64,000 nt of DNA, from the NCBI GenBank assembly GCA_018375675.1, contig JAHACW010000002.1, positions 1 through 64,000 on the forward strand, written 5' to 3'. Below, piece after piece: positions 7,661 to 62,839 of this stretch (positions within the stretch are counted from its first letter, which is position 1; the number at the start of each line of letters is the position of its first letter). This DNA is from Actinomyces sp. GTDB lineage: Bacteria; Actinomycetota; Actinomycetes; Actinomycetales; Actinomycetaceae. A model generated the notes under the pieces. The model saw nothing but the letters and a program-made list of their open reading frames with translations, searched no databases and had not been told where the DNA came from. The position numbers and the translations under genes are program-made.

Positions 7661-7706
7661 AGCCCAGGCCTCGTTCCCAACATGGGACGAGGCCGGGGCT
7701 CTTTTG
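7661..7706 (+). terminator. terminator of the ilvBNC operon
   Basis: AGCCCAGGCCTCGTTCCC pairs with GGGACGAGGCCGGGGCT (two mismatches) around a 5-base loop, followed by CTTTTG. The right arm contains an exact copy of the dispersed 13-mer ACGAGGCCGGGGC at 7687-7699. Confidence 0.85.
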
Positions 7707-7747
7707 TGCTGACAGGCGCGGGTGGGCTCGGCAGTTTTGCGCGCGAG

Positions 7748-7903
7748 TTAGTTCGATGGTGCTTCGTCGGAGCCGTTCGTCCACGGAAGGGGCGCGGGGG
7801 AGAGAGCATCCGCGTTGGAGACGGTGGAGATCGGTGCAACGATCACGAGGGAAGCGACGGCGGCCGACGCGACGCGTGTCAGAGTTCGACGGGAGGGGCG
7901 CAC
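7748..7903 (-). CDS. short secreted peptide or remnant of a secreted protein
   Basis: A 51-codon frame on the minus strand, starting GTG 7903 with AAGGA 7 bases upstream and ending TAA 7748. The N-terminus reads MRPSRRTLTRVASAAV, then a hydrophobic stretch ASLVIVAPISTVSNADA. This is a textbook signal peptide with a likely cleavage after ADA. Only about 18 residues follow (LSPAPLPWTNGSDEAPSN), too short for a known secreted enzyme. It could be a genuine exported peptide, or a secreted protein (perhaps a hydrolase paralogous to the neighbouring sialidase) cut short by a premature stop. I found no recognisable continuation. Confidence 0.5.
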   Translation of the reverse strand: MRPSRRTLTRVASAAVASLVIVAPISTVSNADALSPAPLPWTNGSDEAPSN

Positions 7904-7920
7904 TGTGATTCCTTGCTGTG

Positions 7921-8295
7921 AAAGACTGATTGACAGGACTAGTTTACAGGTAAGTGCTTGCTGAGCAACTAGCAGTGACCTGTTCTACTGCCCAGTGTTG
8001 GTCGGCATGTCCTGGTGAGGCGAATTGTTTGTTGGATCGTTTGGTTTGACAGGGGAGGGGTTGGCATTGTTAGGCGGTGTGGGGATTGGGGGTCTGAGTG
8101 TGTAGGCCTGTTGTGGAATGAGGGGTTGACAGGCGTGTGTGAATGTCGATAGTTCTAATGTAATTGTCCTAGACGTTGATAAAAGTTGTCTGTCATATAA
8201 CTGGTTAGCGAGCATCTAAATTTATATGATGAATCTCGTGGATAGTGAGTCACGACTCACTGACCGCTGATTGACAACCCATATCGGAAGGACCA
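7921..8295 (+). promoter_or_regulatory. AT-rich upstream region of the sialidase gene
   Basis: This 375-base stretch is visibly lower in GC than its surroundings. It has three copies of TTGACAGG (7930, 8044, 8126), one of which could serve as a -35 box with GATAGT at 8148 (16-base spacing), and many runs of G and T. The proximal part (8150-8240) is rich in TA steps. No gene is supported on either strand. The composition suggests a regulated promoter acquired together with nanH (inference). Confidence 0.5.
8244..8261. promoter_or_regulatory. palindromic operator candidate upstream of nanH
   Basis: A perfect palindrome with 8-base arms, AGTGAGTC and GACTCACT, separated by AC. It lies 34 bases before the nanH start codon. 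The size and symmetry fit a dimeric repressor site, for example a GntR- or RpiR-type sialic-acid regulator. No regulator gene is present nearby, so the protein is unknown. Confidence 0.55.
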
Positions 8296-10554: not shown

Positions 10555-10572
10555 CCCGTATCTATCGCGGTC

Positions 10573-10615
10573 GGGGCCGGGGGAGCGTGTATGCCCTCCC
10601 GGCCCCGGCCTCGTC
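10573..10615 (+). terminator. terminator-like hairpin after nanH
   Basis: GGGGCCGGGGGAG and CTCCCGGCCCC form a nearly complete inverted repeat about 20 bases after the nanH stop. The right side carries the dispersed 13-mer in minus orientation at 10602-10614 (GCCCCGGCCTCGT). There is no T-tract. Confidence 0.6.
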
Positions 10616-10696
10616 TATGGGGGACGTCACGGCGCAAAGAGACCACGGGTTGGACCCGTGCGGACGCGCGGCGCACACGCGGGGGAAGATGGAGTC

Positions 10697-11746
10697 ATGA
10701 CACTGAACATCGCAGTAATCCCCGGCGACGGCATCGGCAAGGAAATCGTCCCTGAAGGCCTGAAGGTCCTGGACCGCGTCCTGGCAGACAAGGGCATCGA
10801 CTACTCCACGACCCACTTCAACCTGGGAGCCGAGCGCTGGCACGCCACCGGCGACACCCTGACCGACGAGGACCTTGAGGCGATCAAGCGTCACGACGTC
10901 ATCCTCCTGGGTGCGGTCGGTGATCCCTCCGTGCCCTCCGGCGTCCTCGAGCGCGGGCTGCTCCTCAAGCTGCGCTTCGCCCTCGACCACTACGTGAACC
11001 TGCGACCCTCCAAGTACTACGAGGGCGTGCCCAGCCCCCTGGCCAACCCCGGCGATATCGACTTCGTCGTCGTTCGCGAAGGCACCGAGGGCCTCTACTG
11101 CGGCAACGGTGGCGCCGTGCGCGTGGGCACCCCGCACGAGATCGCGACCGAGGTCAGCGTCAACACCGCCTACGGCGTCGAGCGCGTCGTGCGCTACGCC
11201 TTTGAGGCGGCCACCTCGCGCAAGAAGCACCTCACCCTCGTCCACAAGCACAACGTCCTGGTCAACGCCGGACACATGTGGCGCCGCATCGTCGACGAGG
11301 TGGGGGAGGAGTACCCCGACGTGAGCGTTGACTACTGCCACATCGATGCCGCCACCATCTACATGGTCACCGACCCGGGCCGCTTCGACGTCATCGTCAC
11401 CGACAACCTGTTCGGCGACATCCTCACCGACGAGGCCGGGGCCGTCACCGGCGGCATCGGCCTGAGCGCGTCTGGCAACCTGAATCCCTCGCGTGAGTAC
11501 CCCTCCATGTTCGAGCCCGTGCACGGATCCGCCCCCGACATTGCGGGGCAGGGTAAGGCCGACCCGACCGCGACCATCTCCTCGGTCGCGCTCATGCTCG
11601 ACTTCATGGGATTCGTCGAGGAAGCCGAGCGGGTGCGCGCGGCGATCGACGCCGACATGGCGGCGCGTGCCGAGGCTGCGGCAGCCGGAACGCCGCTCGT
11701 CCGTTCCACCTCTCAGATCGGCGACGACATCGCCGCCAGGGTCTGA
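10697..11746 (+). CDS. leuB: 3-isopropylmalate dehydrogenase
   Basis: A 349-residue NAD-dependent beta-decarboxylating dehydrogenase of leucine synthesis, oxidising 3-isopropylmalate. It starts with the family signature [19 protein letters not shown]. It has the substrate-binding arginines around [21 protein letters not shown] and the metal-binding region in [23 protein letters not shown] 10697 follows GGAG; the frame stays open back to 10541 but has no family similarity there. Tartrate- or isocitrate-type relatives are possible, but length, motifs and the nearby ilv genes favour LeuB. An exact copy of the 13-mer (11430-11442) encodes the residues DEAGA. Confidence 0.93.
11430..11442 (+). repeat. 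dispersed 13-mer ACGAGGCCGGGGC inside leuB
   Basis: Exact copy, plus orientation. It is read in the frame D-E-A-G-A. Confidence 0.75.
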
Positions 11747-11755
11747 GTCATCAAT

Positions 11756-11794: not shown

Positions 11795-11829
11795 TTCTAT
11801 CTGCTGGAGTGCCGGCCTCGCGCCGCGTG

Positions 11830-12834
11830 TTAGCGTGTGCCGATGAGAGCGGGCAGGGACGTGCGTGAAGCCCACTGTTCGATGTCGACGAGGGCGGCGC
11901 TAGCCCCCGCCGCGCGCACGTCGGCGGAGTCACTGATGAGCATCGCGGCGTCGGCCGCGAGCAGGTTTGAGGCCAAGGACGCGCCGTCGAGGGCGTCGAG
12001 CGTGCAACGCGACGTGCGGGTGTCCGCTGCGCCAGCGCGCAAAGCCGTATCGACGCGGACGAGCAGCTCGCCGGATACGTTGTACGCGTCGCTCAGCGTA
12101 CCGGTGCTCACCTGGGCCTTCGGCAGGGATGATGCGGTGCAATCCCATGTGGCGACAGCCTGTGAGAGTTCCGCCGAAGAAGACAGATCCTTGCCGGAAG
12201 GGGCGAACGTGGGGGAGATGGAGGACTCATTGAACAGGTCGATCGCCCAGGTCTGAACGCCCTGACGCGACGCCGTGTTCACGCGGTCGTTGATGAGTTG
12301 CGCCGCGTCGTCGCCGGCCTCGAGATCGATACCGTAGACGTGGGCGAGGGTCACCGCGCTCGCGTAGCGTCCGAGCGCGGAGGCGCCGAGTGTGCGTGCC
12401 TCATCGGCGGAGGTCTTGTCCGGGGTGGCGGCAATCTCGAGGTCGCGCGTGGCCGTGCGCGCCAGCCATGACACGTACGCCGAGACGTCGGTGGGCGCCT
12501 CGGATATGGCTGCCGGAGCGGACTCACCCTCGGGCGTCGCCCCGCCCCACGGATCCCACAGTCCGCCGAGCGCCTCGAGCCGTGCCTGCGAGGACGAAGC
12601 CACGTCGCGCAGAGCGGACGAGCAGGACGCGCAATCCGTCGCGATGTCCGCCAGTTGGGTCGCGCGAGCCGCAGCGGCAGCCTCCGTGCGCGCGGCCTGG
12701 TCGCGAACCGCCGCGAAACCAGACAGGGTGGGCAGCGACGACGCGCCGCACGCGGACAGCGCGAAAACCGCAGCCGACGTCACGACGAGGCCGGGGATGC
12801 GGTGTGTGGTCAAAGTCAGTTTTGCGAAACGCAC
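11830..12834 (-). CDS. predicted lipoprotein with DUF4439-like domain
   Basis: About 334 residues. The N-terminus is a lipoprotein signal peptide (IPGLVVTSAAVFALSAC), with a lipobox LSAC around residue 29, so the mature protein should be anchored to the outer face of the membrane. The rest is Ala-rich and helical. The C-terminal part (about 190-330) resembles the actinobacterial DUF4439 ferritin-like domain, and a gene of this type often lies beside rimP. No function is established. GTG 12834 is chosen to leave an intact signal peptide; the frame is open further upstream. It is divergent from rimP. The 13-mer minus its last base lies at 12785-12796. Confidence 0.7.
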   Translation of the reverse strand: MRFAKLTLTTHRIPGLVVTSAAVFALSACGASSLPTLSGFAAVRDQAARTEAAAAARATQLADIATDCASCSSALRDVASSSQARLEALGGLWDPWGGATPEGESAPAAISEAPTDVSAYVSWLARTATRDLEIAATPDKTSADEARTLGASALGRYASAVTLAHVYGIDLEAGDDAAQLINDRVNTASRQGVQTWAIDLFNESSISPTFAPSGKDLSSSAELSQAVATWDCTASSLPKAQVSTGTLSDAYNVSGELLVRVDTALRAGAADTRTSRCTLDALDGASLASNLLAADAAMLISDSADVRAAGASAALVDIEQWASRTSLPALIGTR

Positions 12835-13376: not shown

Positions 13377-13382
13377 GAGACC

Positions 13383-18228: not shown

Positions 18229-19281
18229 ATGGCTCGTCGACCCGATAATCCTCGTCCGGGCCTGCTTGTCATCGACAAGCCACAGGGGCTCACCAGCCAC
18301 GATGTGGTCTCACGCGTGCGACGCCTGGCCCACACCCGCAAGGTGGGGCACGGCGGTACCCTGGACCCGATGGCCACGGGAGTCCTCGTGATCGGCATCG
18401 GCAAGGCGACGAAGCTGCTTACCTGGGTGAGCGGCCACTCGAAGGAATATCGGGCGACGATCCGCTTCGGCGTCGCCACCAACACGGACGATGCCGAGGG
18501 CGTCGCGATCGCGGCCGTTGGCTGCGCTTCGCTGAGTGAGGAGCAGCTCGAGGCTGCGCTCGCGCCGCTGCGCGGGGACATCATGCAGGTGCCCTCGACT
18601 GTCTCGGCGATCAAGGTGAACGGTAAGCGCGCCTACGCACTCGCCCGCGCCGGCGAAGACGTCGAGCTGGCGGCGCGCCCGGTGCGCATTTCTCGCCTGG
18701 AGGTCCTCGAACCCCCGCGCCCCGTCGAGTGCGTGCTCGAGGGGACGGGCGCTGACAACACACCCAACGAATCGGCTCCCTCCGGTCCCGTTCGCGTGGT
18801 CGACGTTGACGTCGTCGTCGAGTGCTCCTCGGGTACCTACGTGCGCGCCCTCGCGCGCGACGCCGGCGAGGCGCTCGGTGTGGGTGCTCACCTGACCGCG
18901 CTGCGCCGCACGCGCGTGGGCGACGTTCCCCTGGAGACGGCGATGACGCTCGAGGAACTGAGTGCCGCCGTCGAGTCAGCCACCCCGGAAGGAGAACCGG
19001 ACGCGGAGCCGGTCCTGCCCCTCGTCCCCCTGGGCGAGGCTGCGCGCACCATGTTCCCCTCCTTGCTCATGACCGAGGCCGAGGCCGGGGCATTCGCGCA
19101 CGGCCAGGCCCCGAGGCGCTCGCGCGGTGAGCTGGCCCAGTGGGCGTCCGAGGCTGGCTACTGCCCGCAGAGCGCCCCCGAGGAGGAGGCCGCGCCGATT
19201 GCCGCCGTCGCGCCTGACGGCACAGTCCTGGGCCTGCTTCGCATTGACGGGACTCGCCTGCGCACCGTCCTGGTTTTCTAG
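18229..19281 (+). CDS. truB: tRNA pseudouridine-55 synthase
   Basis: A 350-residue enzyme that forms pseudouridine 55 in the T-loop of tRNAs. The N-terminal catalytic domain has GLLVIDKPQGLTSHDVV and the catalytic aspartate in GGTLDPMATGVLVIGIGKATKLL (about residue 43). The motif SSGTYVRALARDAGEALGVGAHL is also intact. The C-terminal PUA-like region (about 265-350) is present. ATG 18229 directly precedes the conserved block; an in-frame TTG at 18214 is unlikely. Confidence 0.95.
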   Translation: MARRPDNPRPGLLVIDKPQGLTSHDVVSRVRRLAHTRKVGHGGTLDPMATGVLVIGIGKATKLLTWVSGHSKEYRATIRFGVATNTDDAEGVAIAAVGCASLSEEQLEAALAPLRGDIMQVPSTVSAIKVNGKRAYALARAGEDVELAARPVRISRLEVLEPPRPVECVLEGTGADNTPNESAPSGPVRVVDVDVVVECSSGTYVRALARDAGEALGVGAHLTALRRTRVGDVPLETAMTLEELSAAVESATPEGEPDAEPVLPLVPLGEAARTMFPSLLMTEAEAGAFAHGQAPRRSRGELAQWASEAGYCPQSAPEEEAAPIAAVAPDGTVLGLLRIDGTRLRTVLVF

Positions 19282-20974: not shown

Positions 20975-23320
20975 ATGATGGAAGGCTCCGACATCATCGC
21001 CGCAGAGGCGATTATCGATAACGGCCGTTTCGGCAAGCGCACCGTGCGCTTCGAAACCGGCCGTCTCGCCAAGCAGGCCGCCGGCTCCGCCCTGGCCTAC
21101 CTGGACGATTCCACCACCGTTCTGTCCGCCACCACGGTGGGCAAGAACCCCAAGGACCAGTTCGACTTCTTCCCGCTGACCGTCGACGTTGAAGAGCGTC
21201 AGTACGCCGCGGGTCGCATCCCCGGTTCCTTCTTCCGCCGCGAAGGCCGCGCGGGCACCGAGGCCATCCTGGCCGCCCGCCTCATCGACCGCCCGCTGCG
21301 CCCCGGCTTCGTCAAGGGCCTGCGCAACGAGGTCCAGGTCGTCGAGACCGTCCTGACGATTGATCCGGACGACGCCTACGACGTTCTGGCGATCAACGCC
21401 GCGTCCATGTCTACCCAGATCGCCGGCCTGCCCTTCACCGGCCCGATCGGTGGCACCCGCCTGGCGCTCATCGACGACCAGTGGGTCGCGTTCCCGCGCT
21501 GGAGCGAGCTCGAGCGTTCCGTGTTCAACATCGTTGTCGCGGGCCGCATCGTCACCAAGGAAGACGGCTCCGAAGATGTCGCGATCATGATGGTCGAGGC
21601 CGGCGGCGGCAAGAACCAGTGGGAGCTCATTCAGGCTGGCGCCACCGCCCCCACCGAAGACATCGTGGCCGACGGCCTCGAGGCCGCCAAGCCCTTCATC
21701 AAGGTCCTGTGCGAGGCTCAGCTCAAGGTGGCCGAGAAGGCCTCCAAGGAGACCGTCGAGTTCCCGCTGTTCCTGGACTACACCGACGAAGAGTACGCGG
21801 CGGTCGAGGAATACGCGGCTGAGAAGGTCGCCCAGGCTCTGCTGACCGAGGGCAAGCTCGCCCGCGACGAGGCCGTGGACGCCGTCAAGGAAGAGATGCT
21901 CGAGGCACTGGCCGAGCGCTTCCCCGAGTCGGAGAAGGCGCTCAAGGCTGCCTTCCGCTCGCTCGAGAAGGCCACGATCCGTAACCGTACCCTGCGTGAA
22001 GAGATCCGCATGGACGGTCGCACCCCGCGCCAGATCCGTTCCCTCTCCGCCGAGGTCGAGGTTCTGCCCCGCGTGCACGGTTCCGCCCTGTTCCAGCGTG
22101 GCGAGACCCAGATCCTGGGCGTCACCACCCTGGCCATGCTGCGCATGGAGCAGCAGATCGACAACCTGTCGCCCGTCAACGCCAAGCGTTACATGCACCA
22201 GTACAACTTCGCTCCGTTCTCGACGGGTGAGGTCGGCCGCGTCGGCTCCCCGAAGCGCCGCGAGATCGGCCACGGCGACCTGGCCGAGCGCGCCCTGGTC
22301 CCCGTCCTGCCCTCGCGTGAGGACTTCCCCTACGCGATCCGTCAGGTCTCCGAGACCATGGGCTCCAACGGCTCCTCGTCGATGGGCTCCGTCTGCGCCT
22401 CGACCCTGTCCCTCCTCCAGGCCGGCGTGCCGCTGCGCGCCCCCGTCGCGGGCATCGCGATGGGCCTCATGACCGGTGAGGTCGATGGCCAGTTCAAGGC
22501 CGTCACCCTGACCGACATCCTGGGCGCCGAGGACGGCTTCGGCGACATGGACTTCAAGGTTGCCGGTACCCGTGACTTCATCACGGCCCTGCAGCTGGAC
22601 ACCAAGCTCGACGGCATCGACTCCCAGGTGCTGCGCGCCGCGCTGGCCCAGGCCCGCGACGCCCGACTGGCGATCCTCGACCTGATCAACCAGGCGATCG
22701 ACGGCCCGGATGAGATGAGCCCCAACGCTCCTCGCATCATCACCGTCAAGGTCCCCGTCGACAAGATCGGCGAGGTCATCGGCCCCAAGGGCAAGATGAT
22801 CAACCAGATCCAGGACGAGACCGGCGCTGACGTCACCATCGAGGACGACGGCACCGTCTACATCGCCTCCTCCGACGGCGCCTCCGCCGAGGCCGCCCGC
22901 ACGATGGTCAACCAGATCGCGAATCCGCAGATGCCCGAGGTCGGCGAGCGCTTCGTCGGCACGGTCGTCAAGACCACCTCGTTCGGTGCCTTCGTGTCGC
23001 TGACCCCCGGCAAGGACGGCCTCCTGCACATCTCGCAGGTCCGTCGCCTCGTGGGTGGCAAGCGCATTGACTCCGTGGACGATGTCCTGCAGGTCGGCCA
23101 GCAGGTCGAGGTCGAGATCGCCGAGATCGGCGACCGTGGCAAGCTGAGCCTGCATGCCGTCATCGACGGCGAGGCCGGCGAGCTCGAGGCCGCCGAGGGC
23201 GAGCAGACCGAGCAGCGCCGTGAGCGCCGCGACCGCTCCGAGCGTCGCGAGCGTCGCCCCCGTACCCGCACCCGTCGCCGCCGTGACGACGAGCGCGAGG
23301 ATGGCGCTTCCGAGGAGTGA
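20975..23320 (+). CDS. pnp: polyribonucleotide nucleotidyltransferase (PNPase)
   Basis: A 781-residue 3'-5' phosphorolytic exoribonuclease. Two RNase PH domains (about 15-230 and 335-560) flank a helical linker. The second has the catalytic [19 protein letters not shown] region, seen here as [16 protein letters not shown], and [20 protein letters not shown] domain ([24 protein letters not shown]) and an S1 domain ([21 protein letters not shown]) follow. The C-terminus has an Arg-rich tail (about 740-775). In actinomycetes this enzyme is also annotated as guanosine pentaphosphate synthetase (gpsI). SD AAGGAG precedes ATG 20975; ATG 20978 is also possible. Confidence 0.96.
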
Positions 23321-23454: not shown

Positions 23455-24759
23455 ATGACGCCCAAGCCGCTGCCGCTCGACGAGGCCCGCCTATCCATCG
23501 AGGATGGCGACACCCGCATTGAACGCACGATCCTGGGAGCCGGGACGCGCGTCCTGACCCAGGAGATTCCCGCAACGAAGAGCGCGGGCGTGTCCCTGTG
23601 GGTGCCCGTGGGGTCGCGCGACGAGGGACCGCGCACGGCTGGATCGACTCACTTTCTCGAGCACCTTCTGTTCAAGGGCACGAACAAGCGTTCCGCCCTC
23701 GACATCGCCGTCGCCTTCGACAGCGTGGGCGGCGAGTCGAACGCGGAGACTGCTCGTGAGCACACCGCCTACTGGGCGCGCGTGCGCGACGCGGACCTCG
23801 ATATGGCGATCGAGACGCTGACCGACATGGTCACCGACTCGCGCCTGGACGAGGAAGATTTCTCGATGGAGCGCGGCGTGATCCTCGACGAACTGGCGAT
23901 GGGGGAGGACTCGCCCACGGACACGGTCCACGACACCTTCCAGCTGGCCGTCCACGGCGACCGCCCGATCGGACGCCCCGTCGGCGGCACGCCACAGGCC
24001 ATCCGTGAGGTCGAGCGCGCGGATGTGTGGGAGCACTACCAGGCCCACTACGGCCCCTCATCCCTCATCGTGGCCGCCGCCGGCAACGTCGACCACGATT
24101 CAGTGTGCGAACGCGTGCAGGCTGCGCTGGAGGGATCGCCCTGGGACGAGAGCAGCGCTGCCTCGCCCCGGCCTCGTCGATCCACGACCGTGACACCGAT
24201 TGCCGACCACGATAAGGACATCACCCGCCGACGCGACGTGACCCAGGCACACGTCATCATCGGCTGCGAGGGCCTGCCAGCAACGGACCCGGCTGGCCCG
24301 ACCATGAGCGTCCTGCTGTCGGTCCTGGGCGGCTCCATGTCGTCACGCCTCTTCCAGGAAGTGCGAGAAAAGCGCGGATTGGCCTACACGACCTACGCCT
24401 TTGACGTCGCCTACTCCGATACCGGAACCTTCGGCATGTACGCGGGTTGTAGCCCCGACAAGGTCGGTGAGGTCGAGTCCATCATGCGCGCTCAGCTGGA
24501 AGACCTCGCCGTTGACGGCCCGACCGAGGAAGAGATGACGCGCGTGCGCGGACAGGTGCGCGGAGGTGTCGTCCTTGGCTTGGAAGACAACTGGTCGCGC
24601 ATGATGCGGCTGGGCCGCTCGGAGATCATCGGTCGCTACCGGCCCATCGACGAGTCCCTCGCCGAGTTCGACGCGGTGGAAGCGACCGACGTGCGCGCCC
24701 TGGCGGCCTCCCTCATCACCAAGCTGGATTGCCGCGCCCTCGTCCTGCCCACCGAGTGA
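23455..24759 (+). CDS. M16-family zinc metalloprotease (PepR/processing-peptidase like)
   Basis: A 434-residue insulinase-type peptidase. The inverted zinc motif HxxEH is seen in STHFLEHLLFKGT (about residue 65), and the downstream metal-binding glutamate lies in the ETAREHTAYWARV to LTDMVTD region. The second, inactive M16 half follows with the RxxY-type motif in REKRGLAYTTYAF (about 304). ATG 23455 follows AGAGGAG. The gene always lies next to pnp in actinobacteria; substrates are not known. The 13-mer at 24165-24177 falls in a variable loop (SPRPRRS). Confidence 0.92.
   Translation: MTPKPLPLDEARLSIEDGDTRIERTILGAGTRVLTQEIPATKSAGVSLWVPVGSRDEGPRTAGSTHFLEHLLFKGTNKRSALDIAVAFDSVGGESNAETAREHTAYWARVRDADLDMAIETLTDMVTDSRLDEEDFSMERGVILDELAMGEDSPTDTVHDTFQLAVHGDRPIGRPVGGTPQAIREVERADVWEHYQAHYGPSSLIVAAAGNVDHDSVCERVQAALEGSPWDESSAASPRPRRSTTVTPIADHDKDITRRRDVTQAHVIIGCEGLPATDPAGPTMSVLLSVLGGSMSSRLFQEVREKRGLAYTTYAFDVAYSDTGTFGMYAGCSPDKVGEVESIMRAQLEDLAVDGPTEEEMTRVRGQVRGGVVLGLEDNWSRMMRLGRSEIIGRYRPIDESLAEFDAVEATDVRALAASLITKLDCRALVLPTE
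24165..24177 (-). repeat. dispersed 13-mer inside the M16 protease gene
   Basis: Exact copy in minus orientation, read by the gene in a P-R-P-R frame. Confidence 0.75.
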
Positions 24760-25599: not shown

Positions 25600-26138
25600 G
25601 CCAGACCGTGGGTCCAGACCGCTCCGTGCGCCCTGCTCAGAGCGGCGACGCGCGCGCGATCGCTCGCCTGCAGCGCGAGGCCTGGAACTCCCTCATGGGG
25701 CAGAACGCTCTCGATGCCCAGGGCATCACTGAGGAGGCGCTCGCCGCCCAGTGGAAGGCAACGCTGGCCTCCCCGCGGCCGGGCGGCACCGCCCTCCTCG
25801 TCGCCCTCCACGGCAATACAATCGTGGGCTTCGCGCTCGCCGGTCCCGACGAGGCCGGGGCTACCTCGGGCGACTCCGCTTCACCGGGTGAGGCGGCGGT
25901 GGTTGCGACGCAGGTGTATGAGCTGACGGTGGATAAGAACTTCCGCCGGTCGGGGCATGCGTCGCGCCTGCTGTCGGCGGTCGCGGACCTGACGAGTGGC
26001 CAGTTGCGCGTGTGGGTTGGCGTGGATGATGAGGAGCGCCAGCGCTTTTACACGTCGGCGGGCTTCGCGCCCTCGGGTGCGGTGCGAGTGCTGGGCGATG
26101 GCCCCACGCAGCACATGTGGTGGGCGGAGCGCGACTAA
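25596..26138 (+). CDS. GNAT-family N-acetyltransferase
   Basis: A 180-residue acetyltransferase of unknown substrate. The GNAT core is visible as AIARLQREAWNSLMG (N-terminal helix), LLVALHGNTIVGFALAG (strands 2-4) and the acetyl-CoA loop VDKNFRRSGHASRLLSAVADL (R-x-x-G-x-x/A type, about 115-135). It ends in the typical GVDDEERQRFYTSAGFAPSG. It is translationally coupled to dapB through the GTGA overlap. The 13-mer at 25849-25861 encodes DEAGA in a loop. Confidence 0.85.
   Translation: MSQTVGPDRSVRPAQSGDARAIARLQREAWNSLMGQNALDAQGITEEALAAQWKATLASPRPGGTALLVALHGNTIVGFALAGPDEAGATSGDSASPGEAAVVATQVYELTVDKNFRRSGHASRLLSAVADLTSGQLRVWVGVDDEERQRFYTSAGFAPSGAVRVLGDGPTQHMWWAERD
25849..25861 (+). repeat. dispersed 13-mer inside the GNAT gene
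   Basis: Exact copy, plus orientation, read D-E-A-G-A. Confidence 0.75.
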
Positions 26139-46279: not shown

Positions 46280-46310
46280 GACCGGCCCCCAGAAAACGGC
46301 ACCGGACAGC

Positions 46311-46334
46311 TCGACGAGGCCCCGGCCTCGTCGA
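46311..46334. terminator. palindromic terminator between dapF and the RsmC-like gene
   Basis: TCGACGAGGCC and GGCCTCGTCGA are perfect 11-base arms separated by CC, located between convergent genes. It contains an exact minus-orientation copy of the 13-mer at 46319-46331. No T-tract. Confidence 0.6.
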
Positions 46335-46348
46335 TGACGAAGAACGCG

Positions 46349-47048: not shown

Positions 47049-48581
47049 ATGGACACGACCCACACAGGTGCGGACTCCTCGAAAGAGGAGCGCGACCAGC
47101 GCGTCAACGACGTTGTCGCGCGTATCCTCGCGCGCTCGGGAACGGCGCTCGCATCGACGACGGGTCAGGACACCTCCCAGGACGCTGGTGCCCTCGAGCG
47201 CGAGGCCCGCGCGGGCACGCGCCGCGTCGACACGGGCGCCTCGGATCGCGAGGACATCTCTGAGGTCGAATACCGCCAGGTGCGACTCGAAAAGGTCGTG
47301 CTCGTGGGCCTGCGCACCACGCAGAGTGAGGAAGAGGCGGAGAACTCGCTGCGTGAGCTGGCCGCGCTCGCGGAGACCGCCGGTTCGCGCGTGCTCGACG
47401 GCATCATCCAGCGCCGCATGAAGCCCGACCCCGCGACCTACCTGGGGTCTGGCAAGGCCCGCGAGCTGGCCGACATTGTGCGCAGCGTCGAGGCCGACAC
47501 CGTCATCGTTGACGAGGAGCTGGCCCCCTCCCAGCGTCGTGGGCTGGAGGACGTTGTTGACGCCAAGGTCGTCGACCGCACGGCCCTCATCCTCGACATT
47601 TTCGCCCAGCATGCCAAGTCCCGTGAGGGCAAGGCGCAGGTGGAGCTCGCGCAGCTTGAGTACCTGCTGCCGCGTCTGCGCGGCTGGGGTGAGTCGATGT
47701 CCCGTCAGGCCGGCGGCCGCGTCGCGGGCGGTGCGGGTATCGGTTCGCGCGGCCCCGGTGAGACCAAGATCGAGCTGGACCGTCGACGCATCCGCACGCG
47801 CATGGCGAAGCTGCGCGCGGACATCGCGCGCATGGAACCCGCCCGTCGAACCCAGCGCAATTCGCGCCGCCGCGGGGCAGTGCCCTCGGTGGCCATCGCC
47901 GGGTACACGAACGCGGGCAAGTCGACGCTGCTCAATCGCTTGACGGACGCGGGCGTCCTCGTCCAGGACGCGCTGTTTGCGACGCTGGACCCGACGGTGC
48001 GCCGTGCGCGCGCCGCAGACGGTCGCGAGTACACCCTCACCGACACGGTCGGCTTCGTGCGCAACCTGCCCACCCAGCTGGTCGAGGCCTTCCGCTCGAC
48101 CCTGGAGGAGGTCGGCCAGGCCGACATCATCTTGCACGTCGTGGACGCCGCACACCCCGATCCTGTCTCTCAGGTGGAGGCCGTGCGCTCGGTCATCGAC
48201 ACGATTGAGGGAGCCTCGGACATTCCGGAGCTGATCGCTCTGAACAAGGCCGACCTGGCTTCGCCTGAGCAGATTGCCCTGCTGCGCACCGTCTTCCCGA
48301 ACGCTGTTCCGCTGAGCGCCCACACGGGCTGGGGCGTGGAGGCTCTGCGCGCCGCCCTCGAAGACATGCTGCCCCGGCCTCGCGTGGCCGTCGATGCGAT
48401 CCTGCCGTACTCGGCCGGCTCCCTCGTGCACCGCATCCACGAGGAGGGCGACGTCGAGCGCGAGGAGTACGTCGAGACGGGCACGCGTATCGTTGCGCGC
48501 GTCGACGAGGCCCTGGCCGCCGTCATCGCCCGCGAGGCGGTGGGCGGCACTGTGGGTGACGCGGCGGTGAGCGGGGAGTGA
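47049..48581 (+). CDS. hflX: ribosome-associated GTPase HflX
   Basis: A 510-residue GTPase that splits stalled or hibernating ribosomes. The N-terminal HflX domain (about 85-245) has AENSLRELAALAETAG and PDPATYLGSGKARELA. The glycine-rich linker GGRVAGGAGIGSRGPGETKIELDRR is typical. The G domain has GYTNAGKSTLLNRLT (about 285-299), DTVGF and NKAD. The first 80 residues are an extra charged extension. ATG 47049 follows AGGAC. Its stop overlaps the helicase start (GTGA). Confidence 0.95.
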   Translation: MDTTHTGADSSKEERDQRVNDVVARILARSGTALASTTGQDTSQDAGALEREARAGTRRVDTGASDREDISEVEYRQVRLEKVVLVGLRTTQSEEEAENSLRELAALAETAGSRVLDGIIQRRMKPDPATYLGSGKARELADIVRSVEADTVIVDEELAPSQRRGLEDVVDAKVVDRTALILDIFAQHAKSREGKAQVELAQLEYLLPRLRGWGESMSRQAGGRVAGGAGIGSRGPGETKIELDRRRIRTRMAKLRADIARMEPARRTQRNSRRRGAVPSVAIAGYTNAGKSTLLNRLTDAGVLVQDALFATLDPTVRRARAADGREYTLTDTVGFVRNLPTQLVEAFRSTLEEVGQADIILHVVDAAHPDPVSQVEAVRSVIDTIEGASDIPELIALNKADLASPEQIALLRTVFPNAVPLSAHTGWGVEALRAALEDMLPRPRVAVDAILPYSAGSLVHRIHEEGDVEREEYVETGTRIVARVDEALAAVIAREAVGGTVGDAAVSGE

Positions 48582-50518
48582 GCGCGGACCTGGTCGAGGC
48601 CTCGGGTCGCGTTCTCGACGCGGTCGTCGCCCAGATGGGCGGGTCCCCGCGCGAGGGGCAGGCCTCGATGGTCGCCGAAGGCGCCGCTGCCTTGGAGGAC
48701 CGCCAGCATCTTCTCGTGCAGGCGGGCACGGGCACGGGCAAGTCCGTGGGCTACCTCGTACCGCTGCTGACGCACTGTGCGACGAACGGCGTGCGCGGGG
48801 TAGTCTCGACGGCGACGCTCGCGCTGCAGCGCCAGATCCTCGTCAAGGACGCGCCTGTGGTCGTCGACGCGGTCGCCTCACAGACGGGCGCGCGCCTGAA
48901 GGTCGCGGTGCTCAAAGGCTGGTCGAACTACGCGTGCCTGCACAAGCTGGACGGCGGGTACCCCACCGAGGGCACCCTGTTTGAGGACCGGGACATGAGC
49001 GTCGGCCCGACGGGCGAGCTCGGCAAGGAGATCCTGCGCATCCGCGAGTGGATCAGCGAGACCACGACGGGGGATCGCGACGATCTGGTTCCGGGCGTCT
49101 CGGATCGCGCCTGGCACCACGCCTCGGTCGCTAAACCCGAGTGCCTGGGCAAGCACTGCCCGCTCATCGACGAGTGCTTCGCGCAGGCGGCCCGCCTGGA
49201 GGCCGCGGAGGCGGACGTTGTCGTCATGAACCACTCCCTCTTCGGTATCAACGCGTGCGGCGAGGGCGAGCTTTTCGGTGAGTACGACGCCGTCGTCATC
49301 GACGAAGCCCACGAACTGGCCGACCGCGTGCGCTCCCAGGCGGCCGCCGACCTGACGGTTGCCCGCGTGAGCCGCGTCGCCCGCTCCCTGCGCTCGAATC
49401 TCTCGATCGATTCCACCGACCTGGACGAGGCCGGGGCCGGGCTGGGCGCGGCCATGGCTCCCCTGGAGGCGGGGCTCCTCGAGTACCGGCCGAGCGCTCT
49501 CGTCGACGCGATGATCGTGCTGGACGGCGCGGCGCGTCGTGCCAGCCACGAGGTGTCCGAGGCCCAGGGAGAACCCGCCGCCAAGCTCCTGGCTCGCGCG
49601 GCCATCGACGAGCTGATCGGCGCTCTCGACGCGTGGGGGCGAGACCCCGACCAGTCGATCGCCTACATCACGAAGGACGAATCGGACAACGCGCGCTTGA
49701 CCGTCGGGCCTCTTGACGTGTCGGCTGCGATCGGTGGAACCGGCATTGGTGAGCGACCCGCGATCCTCACGTCTGCGACCCTCGCGCTCGGCGGAAACTT
49801 CGACTTCATGGCCGCACAGGCAGGTATGGCCGTCTCCGGCGTACCCTGGCACGGTATCGACGTCGGATCGCCCTTCGACCACGGTCGCCAGGGCATCCGC
49901 TACGTGGCGACCCACCTGCCCCTGCCGGGGAGAGACGGCCCCTCCGAGGAGCTGCTGGACGAGCTCGTGGAGCTGGCGCAGGCCTCGGGAGGCGGGATGC
50001 TCGCCCTCTTCGCGTCGCGACGCGGGGCGATGGCGGGAGCGCAGGCCCTGCGCGAGCGCACGGACCTGACCGTCTACCTGCAGGGCGAAGAGACCCTGGC
50101 GCAGCTGATCCAGCGATTCCGCCAGGAGCGCGACTCGTGCCTGGTGGGCACGATGTCCCTGTGGCAGGGCGTCGACGTCGTGGGGGACGCCTGCCGCCTC
50201 GTCGTCATTGACAAGATCCCGTTCCCGCGCCCGGATGATCCCGTCTCGCGCGCCCGCTCGATGGACGTCGAGCGCAGGGGAGGGAACGGCTTCGTGTCGG
50301 TATCCCTCACGCACGCGGCGCTCATGATGGCCCAGGGCGTGGGGCGCCTCCTGCGCTCGACCGACGACCGGGGCGTCGTGGCCATCCTCGATCCGCGCGT
50401 GGTGACCAAGCGCTACGGCGGTTTCATCATGCGCTCCCTACCGGCCATGTGGCCGACGACAGATCCTCAGGTTGTTCGCGGTGCGCTGCGGCGCCTCGCG
50501 AAGGGGGCTGAGCAATAG
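48578..50518 (+). CDS. dinG: DinG/XPD-family ATP-dependent DNA helicase
   Basis: A 646-residue superfamily 2 helicase. Walker A is VQAGTGTGKSVGYL (about 47-60), the DEAH box is AVVIDEAHELADR (about 235-247), and the Fe-S cluster cysteines appear as YACLHK, PECLGKHC and IDECF (about 112-205). C-terminal motifs are LVGTMSLWQGVDV and GVGRLLRSTDDRGVVAILDPR. DinG proteins unwind forked or R-loop structures. It is coupled to hflX. The 13-mer at 49425-49437 encodes DEAGA. Confidence 0.92.
   Translation: MSADLVEASGRVLDAVVAQMGGSPREGQASMVAEGAAALEDRQHLLVQAGTGTGKSVGYLVPLLTHCATNGVRGVVSTATLALQRQILVKDAPVVVDAVASQTGARLKVAVLKGWSNYACLHKLDGGYPTEGTLFEDRDMSVGPTGELGKEILRIREWISETTTGDRDDLVPGVSDRAWHHASVAKPECLGKHCPLIDECFAQAARLEAAEADVVVMNHSLFGINACGEGELFGEYDAVVIDEAHELADRVRSQAAADLTVARVSRVARSLRSNLSIDSTDLDEAGAGLGAAMAPLEAGLLEYRPSALVDAMIVLDGAARRASHEVSEAQGEPAAKLLARAAIDELIGALDAWGRDPDQSIAYITKDESDNARLTVGPLDVSAAIGGTGIGERPAILTSATLALGGNFDFMAAQAGMAVSGVPWHGIDVGSPFDHGRQGIRYVATHLPLPGRDGPSEELLDELVELAQASGGGMLALFASRRGAMAGAQALRERTDLTVYLQGEETLAQLIQRFRQERDSCLVGTMSLWQGVDVVGDACRLVVIDKIPFPRPDDPVSRARSMDVERRGGNGFVSVSLTHAALMMAQGVGRLLRSTDDRGVVAILDPRVVTKRYGGFIMRSLPAMWPTTDPQVVRGALRRLAKGAEQ
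49425..49437 (+). repeat. dispersed 13-mer inside the dinG-like gene
   Basis: Exact copy, plus orientation, read D-E-A-G-A. Confidence 0.75.
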
Positions 50519-57043: not shown

Positions 57044-59317
57044 CTACCACTCTTCCATGCCGGCGGGCAGGGGAGCGCAGTGGACGACGTGCACGTCGTG
57101 GGTGGCGCGGGTGAGGGCGACGAAAAGGTCGCCGACGCCGTCGCTGAGGATCTCCGCGGGTTCGACGAGGATGACGGAGTCGAACTCGAGGCCCTTGGAG
57201 GCAACGGCCGACAGGAGGCTGACGCGCTCGGAGAGGGCTGTCTCGCCGTCCACGTCGGCTCCCCACGCGCGGGCGCGTTCGTTGCCGACAATGAGGGCGA
57301 TGCGGCCGCGGGAGGTGCCCGACTCGCGATCGAGGCGTTCCTCGGCCTCGTGCTGGGCCTGGGCGACGGCGCGACACAGGGGGCTGTTGTCCTTCGACGA
57401 GGCCGGGGCGTCCTCGGGCGCATCCACGTGGGTGACGCGGTAGCAATCCTCGACGTCGCGCACGGCAGTCATCGGGTAGAGGACGGGGACGCCGGCGCGC
57501 GCAACGACACCTTCTGCAAGGGTCGTGAGGGTCGCGGGCGTGCGGTACGAGACCGTCAGAGCGTACTCGGCCGCCAGGGCGCGGGCCGCAGGGCCGAGAG
57601 CTTTCTCCCACGTGGGCGGGCGCTTGGAGCCGCGACGCTGGTCGAGGTCGCCCACGACTGTGAATGAACGGGAGGGGCAGCGGCGCAGCAGGGCGCGCCA
57701 AGCCATGGGAGAGAGTTCCTGCGCCTCGTCGACCACGATGTGGCCGTACGCCCACGTGCGGTCCTTGGCGGCGCGCTCGGACAGCGGCGTCCAGGTGTCC
57801 TGCCCGGCCACTTGCTCGGCGAGCATCTGGGCGGTCACGATGCCGCCGCCCAGGTTTTGGGCCTCGATTGCCTCGCGGGCACGCTCGATCGCTCCCGCGT
57901 CGGCCTCACGCGACGAGGAGGAAGACGACGGCATGGGGCCGAGCAGTTCCTCGCACTCGTCCAGGATCGGCACGTCCGAGACCGTCCACGGCGCCGAGCG
58001 GGGGCGCACTAGGGCAGCGAGTTCGTCGGGACGCAGGGGCGAGCCGGCCTTGCGGTTTGCCGCCGCCAGCACCTCGGGGCGAGCATAGAGGCGGCGCAGC
58101 AGCGTCTGTGCGCTCGTCGGCATCCACGCCGTGTTGATCGCACGTCGGCAGTCCACGGAATCGCGGATTTCGACGAGCCAGGAGCGCTTGACCTCGGGAT
58201 CGACGCCGCCCTCGGAGTCGGCGTCCCCGGCCTCGCGCGCCAGTCGCAGGGCCAAAACGTCCATGAGCTCGCGCGCAAACGACTCACGCGCCACGTTATG
58301 TGCGCGGCCCGAGCGCTTCGCCCGGCGCCTCGCGCTCTCCACGTCGGCGCGCGTCAGCGTCACCTCGCGATTCCACACGCGCAGCACCTGGTCGCCGTCG
58401 GGGAGCTTGGCCAGCGCGCGCACGGCTTCCTTGACGATCTTCGCCCACGCGGGCAGGCCCTTGATCCGCGCCACGGCCTCGTCCTCGCTCACGCGAGCGT
58501 TCACGCCGGGCACCAGATCACCCAGCGTCACCGAGACGACACCCGTCTCGCCGAGCGACGGCAGGACCTGTTCGATGTAGCGCAGGAACAGGCGCGAGGG
58601 ACCGACGAGGAGGACACCCGATCGTTCGAGGCGCTCGCGGTGGGCGTAGAGCAGGTACGCGATGCGGTGGAGGGCGACTGCCGTCTTGCCGGTGCCGGGG
58701 CCGCCCTGGACAACTAGGAGACCCTTGTCGGACGCACGAATGATGCGGTCCTGCTCAGACTGGATGGTGGCAACGATGTCGCCCATGCGGCCGTCGCGGG
58801 CCTCGCTGAGGGCGTGCATGAGGGCTCCCTCGCCCTGGAGTTCCAGTCCGGACGCTCGGGAGGCGTCCAGCAACTCGTCTTCGAGGCCGGTGACGCGTCG
58901 GTCACGGGTGGAGATGTGGCGGCGACGCACGACGCCGTCCGGCTCGGCGGAGGTGGCCTGGTAGAAGGGGCGTGCGGCGGGTGCGCGCCAGTCAACGAGC
59001 AGGGGAGTGCCGTCCTCGTGGGACAGGGAGAGACGACCCACGTGGCGGGTTGAGCGATCAGCCATGTCGAGGCGTCCGAACACGAGGCGTTCCTCGACGC
59101 CTTCGAGGCGCGCGGCCATTTCGCCGAGGTGGGCCGATAGGGCCTCGCGCTCGGTCCATCCCTGGGCGTTGCCGACGCCGTGGGTCGAGTGGACGCGCCC
59201 CTGACGCTGCCGATATGAGGCTCGCAGAGCGTCCAGGCGTTCGTAGGCGCTGTCCACGAAATCCTGTTCGGGCAACGGAAGGTCGGTTGACGACTCGCGG
59301 TGCTCGTTCGTGGCCAT
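57044..59317 (-). CDS. helD: HelD-like superfamily 1 helicase (RNA-polymerase-associated type)
   Basis: A 757-residue UvrD-like ATPase. Walker A is VVQGGPGTGKTAVALHR (about 203-219), motif II is HIVVDEAQELSPMAW (about 525), motif III is FTVVGDLDQR and motif VI is VALTRATHDVHVVH. The N-terminal 190 residues, with a conserved RHVGRLSLSHEDGTPLLVDWRAP, mark HelD proteins that clear stalled RNA polymerase and can confer rifampicin tolerance in mycobacteria. GAGGAGG precedes ATG 59317. The 13-mer at 57397-57409 is in the APASS segment. Confidence 0.88.
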   Translation of the reverse strand: MATNEHRESSTDLPLPEQDFVDSAYERLDALRASYRQRQGRVHSTHGVGNAQGWTEREALSAHLGEMAARLEGVEERLVFGRLDMADRSTRHVGRLSLSHEDGTPLLVDWRAPAARPFYQATSAEPDGVVRRRHISTRDRRVTGLEDELLDASRASGLELQGEGALMHALSEARDGRMGDIVATIQSEQDRIIRASDKGLLVVQGGPGTGKTAVALHRIAYLLYAHRERLERSGVLLVGPSRLFLRYIEQVLPSLGETGVVSVTLGDLVPGVNARVSEDEAVARIKGLPAWAKIVKEAVRALAKLPDGDQVLRVWNREVTLTRADVESARRRAKRSGRAHNVARESFARELMDVLALRLAREAGDADSEGGVDPEVKRSWLVEIRDSVDCRRAINTAWMPTSAQTLLRRLYARPEVLAAANRKAGSPLRPDELAALVRPRSAPWTVSDVPILDECEELLGPMPSSSSSSREADAGAIERAREAIEAQNLGGGIVTAQMLAEQVAGQDTWTPLSERAAKDRTWAYGHIVVDEAQELSPMAWRALLRRCPSRSFTVVGDLDQRRGSKRPPTWEKALGPAARALAAEYALTVSYRTPATLTTLAEGVVARAGVPVLYPMTAVRDVEDCYRVTHVDAPEDAPASSKDNSPLCRAVAQAQHEAEERLDRESGTSRGRIALIVGNERARAWGADVDGETALSERVSLLSAVASKGLEFDSVILVEPAEILSDGVGDLFVALTRATHDVHVVHCAPLPAGMEEW
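57397..57409 (+). repeat. dispersed 13-mer inside the helD-like gene
   Basis: Exact copy, plus orientation, while the gene is on the minus strand and reads A-P-A-S-S there. This is a third reading frame relative to other copies. Confidence 0.75.
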
Positions 59318-60568: not shown

Positions 60569-60626
60569 GCTCTATCCACGCACCCGGGTTCGCCCGTGCG
60601 CACGAGTTCAATCGCGCGCAGGAGTG

Positions 60627-61448
60627 TCAGTCGGCCTGCGGGTAGCCCACCTGCGCGTCCGTCAGCGCCCGCGTGCCCGCGACCCAGCGTGTCAGGTCGG
60701 CCGGCCTCGTAATGCGGGCCGGGAGAGCCAGTGTGCGCAGGGCCCGATCGATCTGATCAACGTCCACGACGTCGGCGGCGCTCGCCAGGGCAACGACGTT
60801 GCCGCGCCGTCCCCCTCGACCCACCTTCGGGTCCTGGATGGAGGCCACGAAAGGGAACACCTCCTGCAGCGCAGCCACGTCCTGGCGCGCGTTGGCAACG
60901 CCTCCGTGCGCGCAATTGACGAGGTACACCCCCGAGGCTGTGAGGGCGCGCCGTGCCCGGTCGGCGCACTCCACCGTGCGCAGATGATCGGGAGTCACGC
61001 CCGACGCGAAGGCGTCGCGCACGATGACGTCGAAAGATCCCTCGCGCGCCCCATCGAGGACCGCGCGTCCATCGCCCATGCGGATCTTGACCTGCGGGGC
61101 CCCCGGGATGGGGAAATGCTCACGCACCTGCTCGGCCAAAAGACGGTCGACCTCCACGGCGACGTGGCGCGAATTCGGGTGCGACGAGGACCACGCGCAG
61201 GCCAGCGCGCAGGCCGCGCCACCCACGTGGAGCGCGCGGAAACGATCCTGGGGACCCCACAGCGAGGACACGACGGCGTCCATATGCTGCATGTACTCGA
61301 ACTCCAAGTATGTGGGGTCCGACGTGTCGACCGCGGATGATTCCACGTCCCCCAGGAACAGCGTCGCGCGCGGACCGTCCCAGCGGATCCGGGCCGGACC
61401 GAAATCCGTATCGAAGGAGATGTCGCGTGACGAAGATGAGCGTGCCAT
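60627..61448 (-). CDS. spermidine-synthase-like methyltransferase-fold protein
   Basis: A 273-residue protein of the polyamine aminopropyltransferase fold. Visible motifs: YLEFEYMQHMDAVVSS (substrate region), ALHVGGAACALACAW (nucleotide-binding, modified from GGGDG), VAVEVDRLLAEQVREHF, and FDVIVRDAFASGVTPDHL. The Gly-rich loop and the missing typical catalytic Asp-Tyr context suggest a different substrate from spermidine synthase. ATG 61448 is chosen; in-frame starts exist up to 61502. It overlaps no gene and is divergent from dinB. Confidence 0.8.
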   Translation of the reverse strand: MARSSSSRDISFDTDFGPARIRWDGPRATLFLGDVESSAVDTSDPTYLEFEYMQHMDAVVSSLWGPQDRFRALHVGGAACALACAWSSSHPNSRHVAVEVDRLLAEQVREHFPIPGAPQVKIRMGDGRAVLDGAREGSFDVIVRDAFASGVTPDHLRTVECADRARRALTASGVYLVNCAHGGVANARQDVAALQEVFPFVASIQDPKVGRGGRRGNVVALASAADVVDVDQIDRALRTLALPARITRPADLTRWVAGTRALTDAQVGYPQAD

Positions 61449-61495
61449 GGTGGACACTGTAACCATGGACGACGCCCACGGGCACAGGAGGTGAC

Positions 61496-62839
61496 ATGTC
61501 AAACGCTCCCAGGGACGCGCGCGCCAAACGCGACTGGGGATCGGACGATAGTGCCACGCCGATCCTGCACGTCGACATGGACTCCTTCTTCGCGCAGGTC
61601 GAAATGCGCGAGGACCCGAGCCTCATCGGCCGCCCCATCATCGTGGGTGGCACGTCCGGGCGCGGAGTCGTCACCTCCGCCACCTACGAGGCCCGATCCC
61701 TGGGCGTGCGCGCGGGCATGCCCACCTCGCGTGCCCGCGCCCTGTGCCCGAACGCCGCATTCATCCCCGGCAACCACGGCCTCTATCAACGCTATTCCCG
61801 CCAGGTGATGGCGATTCTTTCCACCGTCACCCCCGACCTCGAGCAGGTCTCCATCGACGAGGCCTTCCTTGACGTCTCCGGGGCGCGCCGCAGACTGGGG
61901 TCGCCGACCCAGATCGCTCGCCTGATCCGCTCCCGCATCCGCGAGGCCGTGGGATTACCTGCATCCGTCGGGATCGCCGCCACCAAGTCGGTCGCCAAAA
62001 TCGCCTCCTCGCATGCCAAGCCCGACGGCCTGCTCCTCATCCCGCACGCGGCCACCGTCGACTTCCTCCACGGATTGCCCGTTGGAGCGCTGTGGGGAGT
62101 CGGAGGAAAGACCGCGGCGATCCTCGATCGGGAGGGGATCGACACGATCGGGGACCTCGCCAACGCTCCACTCGCGCGCCTCACCAAGCTCCTTGGTGCG
62201 GCCTCCGCCCACCACCTGCACGACCTTTCGTGGGGCATTGACCCGCGTCCCGTCGCCCCCACCCGCGCGGAGAAATCGGTCGGTATGGAACGAACCTTCG
62301 AGGAGGACGTGCGCTCGCGGGCCGACATTGAAGAATTCATCCTGGCGGCCTCGCACGACTGTGCGCGCAGGCTTCGTGCAGGAGGCGTCGTGGGGTGGAC
62401 CGTGGGCATCAAGATGCGCGGCACCGATTTTCATACGATCACGCGCAGCGTGAGCCTCGTGGCGCCCACCGACACTGGGCGCGATATTGCGCAGGCGGCA
62501 CAGGGCCTGTTTGCCCGCGAGGACATGCCGATCGGGGGAGTACGGCTCTTCGGCGTGCGAGTGGAGGGGTTGCAGGCGCGCTCGGGCGGCGTCGCCGTCA
62601 CACTCGACCGTGATGAGAGGCCTGCCGCCTCCGAACGTGCGATGGATCAGATCCGTGACAAGTTCGGCGCCGGCGCCCTCGCCCCCGCCACGCTCCTGGG
62701 TAAGAAGGTGCCGGGCAGGCGCTCCTTCGGTGGGGATAGCAACGAGGCCGGGGCTCCTCCCGCCGATTCCAGCGCTCAGACGCACGGGCAGGGGAGAGGC
62801 CCCGGCAAAGAAGAATCCACGCAGGGAACGCTCCTGTAA
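61496..62839 (+). CDS. dinB: DNA polymerase IV (DinB)
   Basis: A 447-residue Y-family translesion polymerase. Catalytic carboxylates lie in LHVDMDSFFAQVEMRED (about 23-39) and VSIDEAFLDVSGARR (about 117-131). Thumb motif SVGIAATKSVAKIASSHAKPDG and the little-finger domain (about 260-360) are complete. The C-terminal 60 residues are disordered. AGGAGG lies 4 bases before ATG 61496. I see no SOS box in the short upstream gap. The 13-mer at 62742-62754 lies in the disordered end (NEAGA). Confidence 0.95.
   Translation: MSNAPRDARAKRDWGSDDSATPILHVDMDSFFAQVEMREDPSLIGRPIIVGGTSGRGVVTSATYEARSLGVRAGMPTSRARALCPNAAFIPGNHGLYQRYSRQVMAILSTVTPDLEQVSIDEAFLDVSGARRRLGSPTQIARLIRSRIREAVGLPASVGIAATKSVAKIASSHAKPDGLLLIPHAATVDFLHGLPVGALWGVGGKTAAILDREGIDTIGDLANAPLARLTKLLGAASAHHLHDLSWGIDPRPVAPTRAEKSVGMERTFEEDVRSRADIEEFILAASHDCARRLRAGGVVGWTVGIKMRGTDFHTITRSVSLVAPTDTGRDIAQAAQGLFAREDMPIGGVRLFGVRVEGLQARSGGVAVTLDRDERPAASERAMDQIRDKFGAGALAPATLLGKKVPGRRSFGGDSNEAGAPPADSSAQTHGQGRGPGKEESTQGTLL
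62742..62754 (+). repeat. dispersed 13-mer near the dinB 3' end
   Basis: Exact copy, plus orientation, read N-E-A-G-A in the disordered C-terminus. Confidence 0.75.

Follow-up and report, generated by a model that had tools for sequence, protein, structure and literature searches.

A dispersed 13-mer with species dialects in Actinomyces resembles a DNA uptake sequence

Copies of the 13-mer in the window

The 64-kb stretch analyzed here (the window; positions 1 to 64,000 of contig JAHACW010000002.1, Actinomyces sp.) holds 53 genes and is 88.6% coding according to a simple gene caller of our own, and dispersed among and within these genes are copies of a 13-mer, ACGAGGCCGGGGC, that was originally predicted to resemble a DNA uptake sequence. 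All ten exact copies of that prediction are present, each at its predicted position and strand; seven lie inside genes and three between them (7687, 10602, and 46319). Copies with at most one mismatch number 20 on the two strands, against a mean of 0.65 and a maximum of 4 in 100 dinucleotide-preserving shuffles of the window. A recount also bears out that the base G directly precedes 8 of the 10 exact copies. If a local 12-bp tandem array is set aside, no other 12- or 13-mer in the window is as over-represented as this word and its one-base shifts.

The seven coding copies are read in three different frames, as had been claimed, giving DEAGA or NEAGA four times, PRPR twice, and APASS once. Codon use was taken into account by synonymous shuffling inside each gene (60 shuffles), which preserves both proteins and codon use. 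The shuffled windows had on average 0.42 coding copies, with a maximum of 2, and in 400 contiguous kb of a related genome (G007) there were 8 coding copies against 0.32 by the same procedure, so that the excess over the synonymous-codon null is 17- to 25-fold; for the reversed word, none was observed and none was expected. The figure of 0.02 copies originally estimated for chance was therefore too low, the coding part alone accounting for 0.42, although the excess is still large. In the nearest genome examined (G001), which shares 42% of sampled 31-mers with the window, there are 267 exact copies, divided between 137 on the forward and 130 on the reverse strand, compared with 2 of the reversed word (1 on each). 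Comparison with a collection of named genomes, in which close records may be missing, yielded relatives from the Actinomycetales with at most 79% protein identity; the genus may be Schaalia/Pauljensenia.

The near copies that had been listed exist, although some were misplaced: the one given at 19083 lies at 19079, that at 48369 lies at 48371 on the minus strand, and that at 34853 lies at 34851 and carries two changes. The list was also incomplete, since one-mismatch copies at 1843, 5347, 7662, 21300, 31643, and 58470 had been overlooked. All exact and one-mismatch copies are given in Table 1. At 63381 to 63440, some 320 bases ahead of a gene that starts at 63764, the 12-mer ACTGTGCTCCCC occurs five times as a perfect tandem.

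Table 1. Exact and one-mismatch copies of ACGAGGCCGGGGC in the window, with their state in related genomes
Copy	Position	Strand	Location and state in relatives
One mismatch, ACGAGGCCGTGGC	1843..1855	+	
One mismatch	5347..5359	-	
One mismatch	7662..7674	-	Left arm of inverted pair with 7687; terminator-like stem, then TCTTTT
Exact	7687..7699	+	Intergenic, 3' of gene ending at 7633; right arm of inverted pair with 7662
Exact	10602..10614	-	Intergenic; within long stem 3' of gene ending at 10554
Exact	11430..11442	+	In gene 10697-11746
One mismatch	12785..12797	+	
One mismatch	19079..19091	+	
One mismatch	21300..21312	-	
Exact	24165..24177	-	In gene 23455-24759; exact in G014; one change each in G007 and G022
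Exact	25849..25861	+	In gene 25596-26138; G007 and G022 each have one change, G014 has four
One mismatch	27875..27887	+	Same in G007 and G014; G022 unaligned there
One mismatch	31643..31655	+	
Exact	35485..35497	-	Antisense within gene 34580-37429; identical in G007 and G022; G014 has two changes
Exact	46319..46331	-	Intergenic (46279 to 46349); perfect stem of 10 bp; identical in G007 and G022; G014 has one change
One mismatch	48371..48383	-	
Exact	49425..49437	+	In gene 48578-50518; exact in G007, G014, and G022
Exact	57397..57409	+	In gene 57044-59317; identical in G007 and G022; G014 has three changes
One mismatch, ACGAGGCCGTGGC	58470..58482	-	Same in G007, G014, and G022
Exact	62742..62754	+	In gene 61577-62839

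Core word, dialects, and conservation

Of the 35 genomes of the genus that were counted, 12 are rich in the exact 13-mer (69 to 303 copies each), and the other 23 have 0 to 29 copies. Neither of the grounds on which the original prediction could have been refuted is seen: the frequency is far above the codon-aware expectation, and the word is abundant in close relatives, which also have genes of a transformation route. Other genomes have a dialect that differs by one base. A k-mer scan of 80-kb samples reveals sister words in genomes poor in the 13-mer, namely, ACGAGGGCG in G018, G010, G016, G028, and G030, ACGAGGACG in G025, and [AC]CGAGGCCG in G017 and G020, and further sister words were picked up in 40-kb samples. 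Across the genus these words share the core ACGAGGxCG, in which the base that is enriched at x (core position 7) varies by species.

Dialects were called from whole-genome counts of the four ACGAGGxCG words wherever the top base was at least 1.5 times as frequent as the next one. By this rule, 15 genomes have C, 9 have G, 1 has A, and 10 have no clear bias (G003, G004, G005, G008, G009, G012, G026, G029, G030, and G035). The C/G/A/T counts are, for example, 1062/240/228/251 in G021, 325/1717/498/456 in G016, 292/1586/294/124 in G032, and 285/257/1039/218 in G025. Four of the ten genomes without a call (G003, G004, G012, and G035) lean toward G or G/A below the cutoff, and G030 is enriched in its 80-kb sample yet has no top base in the whole-genome count. 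These dialects are a feature that goes beyond the picture originally drawn. On a tree of 34 genomes that is based upon MiaB and ComEC only, with under half of the columns for four rows, the dialect labels require 8 changes, compared with a mean of 15.9 after shuffling, and none of 200 shuffles was as low. Species with the C dialect form one clade of ten, to which G001 and G007 belong, and another, separate group of five. The dialects are congruent with the species tree. The C-type 13-mers in two genomes whose top core base is not C (G005 and G032) possibly reflect two dialects per genome, and G029, which is low in GC and has comEC, dprA, and a tad ATPase, is a candidate for loss of the word.

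Exact copies are in excess between genes, where 14 of 22 were found in the 400 kb of G007 (3.6 expected) and 3 of 10 in the window (1.1 expected). The same is true of core sites in each dialect: 37 of 143 ACGAGGCCG sites in G007, 40 of 87 ACGAGGGCG core sites in G016, and 30 of 70 core sites in G025 are intergenic, compared with intergenic shares of the sequence of 16%, 20.5%, and 28.7%, respectively. Nearly all intergenic core sites of these three genomes carry the dialect base, and the other three x bases are almost absent. As the gene caller is unreliable below about 57% GC, the intergenic shares of G032, G029, G017, and G020 were left out.

Copies are also retained above the rate of neighboring DNA in aligned relatives. 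Three orthologous regions, compared over 52 ordered genome pairs, gave 143 instances of the exact 13-mer, of which 83 are retained, against 34 expected from all 13-mers and 22 expected from 13-mers within 60 bp. Six exact copies of the window could be aligned, with four retained in G007, two in G014, four in G022, and one in all three; the word at 46319 is identical in G022, while its flanks are only 69% identical.

In the genomes sampled outside the genus, the word is not amplified. In a family survey of 121 genomes (7 from the genus of the window and 114 from 35 other genera), ACGAGGSCGGGGC has 0 to 9 copies in each of the 114 genomes, and 80 named loci from other Actinomycetes (1.6 Mb) contain 4 exact copies. 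In these loci the four core words occur at 1.35 to 1.46 times the Markov expectation, with no preferred base. A 14-mer scan of viral contigs gave at least 120 loci, of which 120 hold a single copy of the 13-mer each, and none of these is rich in it. A search of mostly open-licence papers, preprint servers not included, found no report of such a word in actinobacteria.

A different word stands out in another genus of the family (g10). ACGTCGGCCA occurs nine times in a 40-kb sample (L289-L290) of one of its genomes (G099), and AACGTCGGCCAC has 96 copies in G044, 68 in G099, and 1 in the third g10 genome, while none of the other 118 family genomes has more than 4. We consider AACGTCGGCCAC a candidate for a second, independent uptake sequence. 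Two other sets of words were dropped. Those of the ACGACGACG type lie largely inside genes (6 of 7 in G050 and 7 of 8 in G051), and AACGTCGAG in G099 belongs to a local tandem array, with 12 of 13 copies between 28066 and 28490 of the joined stretch; that interval (L289-L290) is a 20-bp tandem array around AACGTCGAGTTGAGGG. Another repeat, in G016 (L093-L096), is the 23-bp periodic word AACAGAGCGGACTTCG..., with 22 occurrences within 80 kb that form small clusters in both orientations.

Placement of copies and alternative explanations

Neighboring copies switch orientation about half of the time (6 of 9 in the window and 10 of 19 in the 400 kb of G007). This bears upon the alternative that survives best, in which the word is the site of a chromosome protein, such as a Chi-like hotspot, an FtsK-orienting site, or a site for a nucleoid or segregation protein. 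Sites of this kind are short, over-represented, tolerated in genes, and variable among lineages, all of which would fit. However, Chi and FtsK-orienting sites are strongly polarized along the replichore, whereas orientation here is mixed over both 64 kb and 400 kb and balanced in the nearest genome (137/130), the strand balance having been among the checks originally proposed. The switching rules out replication polarity locally. Nor would one expect the sites of a chromosome protein to pair up in inverted orientation within stems between convergent genes, and we regard this explanation as an outside chance.

The three intergenic copies of the window each fold into a stem, in agreement with the original prediction of terminator or palindrome stems. 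The stem at 7655 to 7712 has a free energy of -32.8 kcal/mol and is followed by TCTTTT, which makes it terminator-like, and the word forms others at 10555 to 10640 and 46280 to 46348, as well as two beside comEC/comEA in G007. Intergenic sites of the C dialect have a density per kb of 2.34 between convergent genes, 0.23 between tandem genes, and 0.41 between divergent genes; in the G and A dialects the convergent-gene excess is weak (1.65, 1.27, and 0.94 per kb in the same order). Both the inverted pairs in stems and the convergent-gene excess are what might be left by a word that had spread with transcription terminators or as a mobile repeat resembling repetitive extragenic palindromic (REP) elements. 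Yet the first 100 of the 267 places in G001 include 7 inverted pairs within 60 bp, or only 14 of the 100 places (4 pairs among the first 100 in G002), and 7 of the 10 window copies are inside genes. Furthermore, when the flanks of 58 distinct copies are compared, the median pairwise identity is 0.29, with notable information only in the G at position -1, which indicates that no longer repeat was moved. The flanks being unrelated, it is therefore the word itself that recurs and not a decayed longer repeat, and a long amplified repeat is ruled out. Conservation beyond the word and confinement to extragenic DNA, as would be typical of a REP-like or amplified repeat, are not seen here, and we hold this explanation to be improbable.

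There is even less in favor of codon or peptide usage, by which Asp-Glu-Ala-Gly-type stretches would yield the word by chance in a GC-rich genome. It is true that all four ACGAGGxCG words are common in the GC-rich genomes G030, G026, and G005, that 4 of the window's 7 coding copies encode (D/N)EAGA, and that the core words are 1.35- to 1.46-fold above the Markov expectation in the 80 loci from other Actinomycetes. Synonymous shuffles, however, yield only 0.42 and 0.32 copies where 7 and 8 were observed, the copies are read in several frames, and sites with the dialect base are in excess between genes in G007 and G016. The synonymous-codon null rules out chance together with codon use as the cause; codon usage is refuted as the whole explanation and accounts for a background share. 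A DNA methylase or restriction site, which would likewise be a short fixed word with lineage variants, is just as improbable, since the GGCC palindrome of the C dialect is absent from the G and A dialects, and we know of no reason for such sites to reach 100-fold over chance, in terminator stems, across most of a clade.

Transformation genes and comparison with known uptake sequences

ComEC is found in 33 of the 35 genus genomes (the two without it are 70% and 88% complete), DprA in 34, and Tad-type ATPases in 34. These ATPases appear as matches below the cutoff to the PilT family, for which no match exceeds the cutoff in the 35 genomes. Thus, of the genes to which the original prediction had pointed, comEC and, in G007, comEA are present, but the pilus genes are of the Tad/Flp type. 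In G007, comEC-comEA adjoins holA, ComEA has SLBB and HHH_3 domains, and the PilT-family matches are two T2SSE-type ATPases in two tad-like loci. Of 30 ATPase loci that were typed, 27 belong to the first tad type, whose gene order, compared in 11 genomes with gene calls that are unreliable for several low-GC ones, is conserved as ssd-tadA-tadB-tadC-flp-tadE-tadF. Pfam supports T2SSE, T2SSF, a Flp-like DUF4244, and Tad in this locus of G007, with TadE below the cutoff and no match for ssd. Because the genomes that combine a dialect with a single ATPase match (G011, G017, G020, and G023) retain the first tad type, it is our preferred candidate for the uptake pilus. TadE/TadF-like proteins and ComEA are candidate receptors.

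The signature described above matches that of the DNA uptake sequences (DUS) of Neisseriaceae and the uptake signal sequences (USS) of Pasteurellaceae: a genome-wide excess beyond composition and codon use; both orientations without polarity, as tested locally over 64 kb and 400 kb; an intergenic excess, with some copies paired in inverted orientation at terminators; dialects that have a core in common and are congruent with phylogeny (10 of the 35 genomes having no clear one); and natural-transformation genes in the carrier. Because of this match, and because Tad-based transformation is known in Micrococcus luteus, we favor a convergent uptake sequence. Judging from sequence, the 13-mer would be one dialect of a self-recognition DNA uptake sequence of independent origin, for which we estimate a probability of about 0.78, and a Tad-type pilus probably serves it. 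The excess over the codon null, the copies in relatives, and the genes for a transformation route support the interpretation originally proposed.

A role of the word in uptake, the choice of protein that would read it, the use of the Tad pilus for uptake, and a drive that multiplies the word are inferred. The word would be a short, nonpalindromic tag that lets an actinobacterium capable of natural transformation favor DNA from its own kind. The tag on outside DNA may be bound by a surface component of the Tad/Flp-type pilus (a TadE/TadF-like minor pilin) or by ComEA, after which the DNA would pass through the wall and past ComEA and enter as a single strand via ComEC, to be recombined into the chromosome by DprA and RecA. 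Tagged alleles would be taken up more often, so that tags could build up by biased transformation and settle where they are least harmful, i.e., in intergenic DNA, in the stems of terminators, and at codons that tolerate them. Drift of the receptor preference would then lead to drift of the species dialect (C, G, or A at core position 7). In a broader version, which we find more likely than not though less secure, an actinobacterial DUS read by a Tad/Flp-type pilus has C/G/A dialects that act as mating-type-like barriers within one genus, and AACGTCGGCCAC is a second uptake word in another genus of the family, so that tags would have evolved more than once in Gram-positive bacteria.

Several observations weigh against an uptake sequence. 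None of the open-licence papers among the matches listed reports natural transformation for this group. Ten of the 35 genomes have no clear dialect though most of them have com, dprA, and tad genes, and the presence of these genes therefore does not imply a tag; one of the ten (G029) has essentially no ACGAGGxCG copies (22/21/50/9). The sorting into dialects depends upon a 1.5-fold cutoff of our own choosing, and the 9-mer is common in any case in the GC-rich G005, G026, and G030. The C-type 13-mer occurs 159 times in G005, which has no top base, and 128 times in G032, which has the G dialect; both counts sit uneasily with the dialect calls. Certain core variants are also up 2- to 5-fold in 40-kb samples from other genera, with small counts (observed/expected of 11/3.9 for C in G072, 7/1.8 for C in G099, and 6/1.3 for A in G047). 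The conservation comparisons are nonindependent, as both directions are counted and ancestry is shared, and most of the exact copies that G021 carries around the first Tad locus are not retained. Spacing is no more even than random: regular spacing and motif deserts as islands were both rejected, given a largest gap of 30.8 kb against a random median of 32.9 kb, and the three longest gaps contain, by eye, ordinary genes. Exact copies are also sparse, at about 1 per 9 kb, whereas the density in Neisseria is near 1 per kb.

Dialect-bearing uptake sequences are described for two families of Proteobacteria, Neisseriaceae and Pasteurellaceae (PMC12616744). If our reading is true, the present word would be a third, unrelated origin, in a host without an outer membrane and with tad rather than pilT-type genes, and self-recognition tags would evolve convergently. 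It would also provide a natural one-base dialect series in which the receptor could be sought by covariation and a new system in which to ask whether tags reflect selection for kin mating or are the by-product of a biased receptor. The right tag on transforming DNA might open poorly tractable actinobacterial commensals to genetics.

The DUS of Neisseriaceae are over-represented, form pairs at terminators, occupy permissive intergenic sites, and fall into dialects that share a core and follow phylogeny, according to the description in PMC3630211. The word studied here is like them in being short and nonpalindromic, with hundreds of copies on both strands and both between and within genes, and in having inverted terminator pairs and dialects that are one or a few bases apart, share a core, and agree with the tree (PMC3630211). 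In contrast, the word itself (ACGAGGxCG...) is unrelated, the host is an actinobacterium, exact copies are sparser, and Tad/Flp-type genes take the place of a PilT-bearing type IV pilus. A neisserial DUS has the core CTG in a GCCGTCTGAA-type word and goes with ComP and PilT, whereas here the word differs and no PilT match exceeds the cutoff in the 35 genomes, ComP not having been searched for. To our knowledge, no ComP is known for the actinobacterial host of this word.

The USS of Pasteurellaceae, as described in PMC12616744, is a short, enriched word that comes in two dialects, which follow clades and share an invariant core, and its pairs double as terminators. Enrichment, clade-following dialects around a core, and terminator pairs are all shared by the present word, which differs in being unrelated and in belonging to another phylum with another type of pilus. 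Neither the GCGG core nor the extended AT-rich flank of the pasteurellacean USS is found, the flanks here being nearly free of information, with no AT-rich tail.

Natural transformation by a Tad/Flp pilus is described for Micrococcus luteus, which has comEA/comEC and two tad-like clusters (PMC6370729). This species, too, is an actinobacterium, and G007 likewise has comEA/comEC and two tad-like loci. The portion of PMC6370729 drawn on here reports no uptake sequence, whereas in the present genus there is a word that resembles one and transformation is predicted. The 13-mer thus likely works like a DUS while standing outside both the neisserial DUS and the pasteurellacean USS families.

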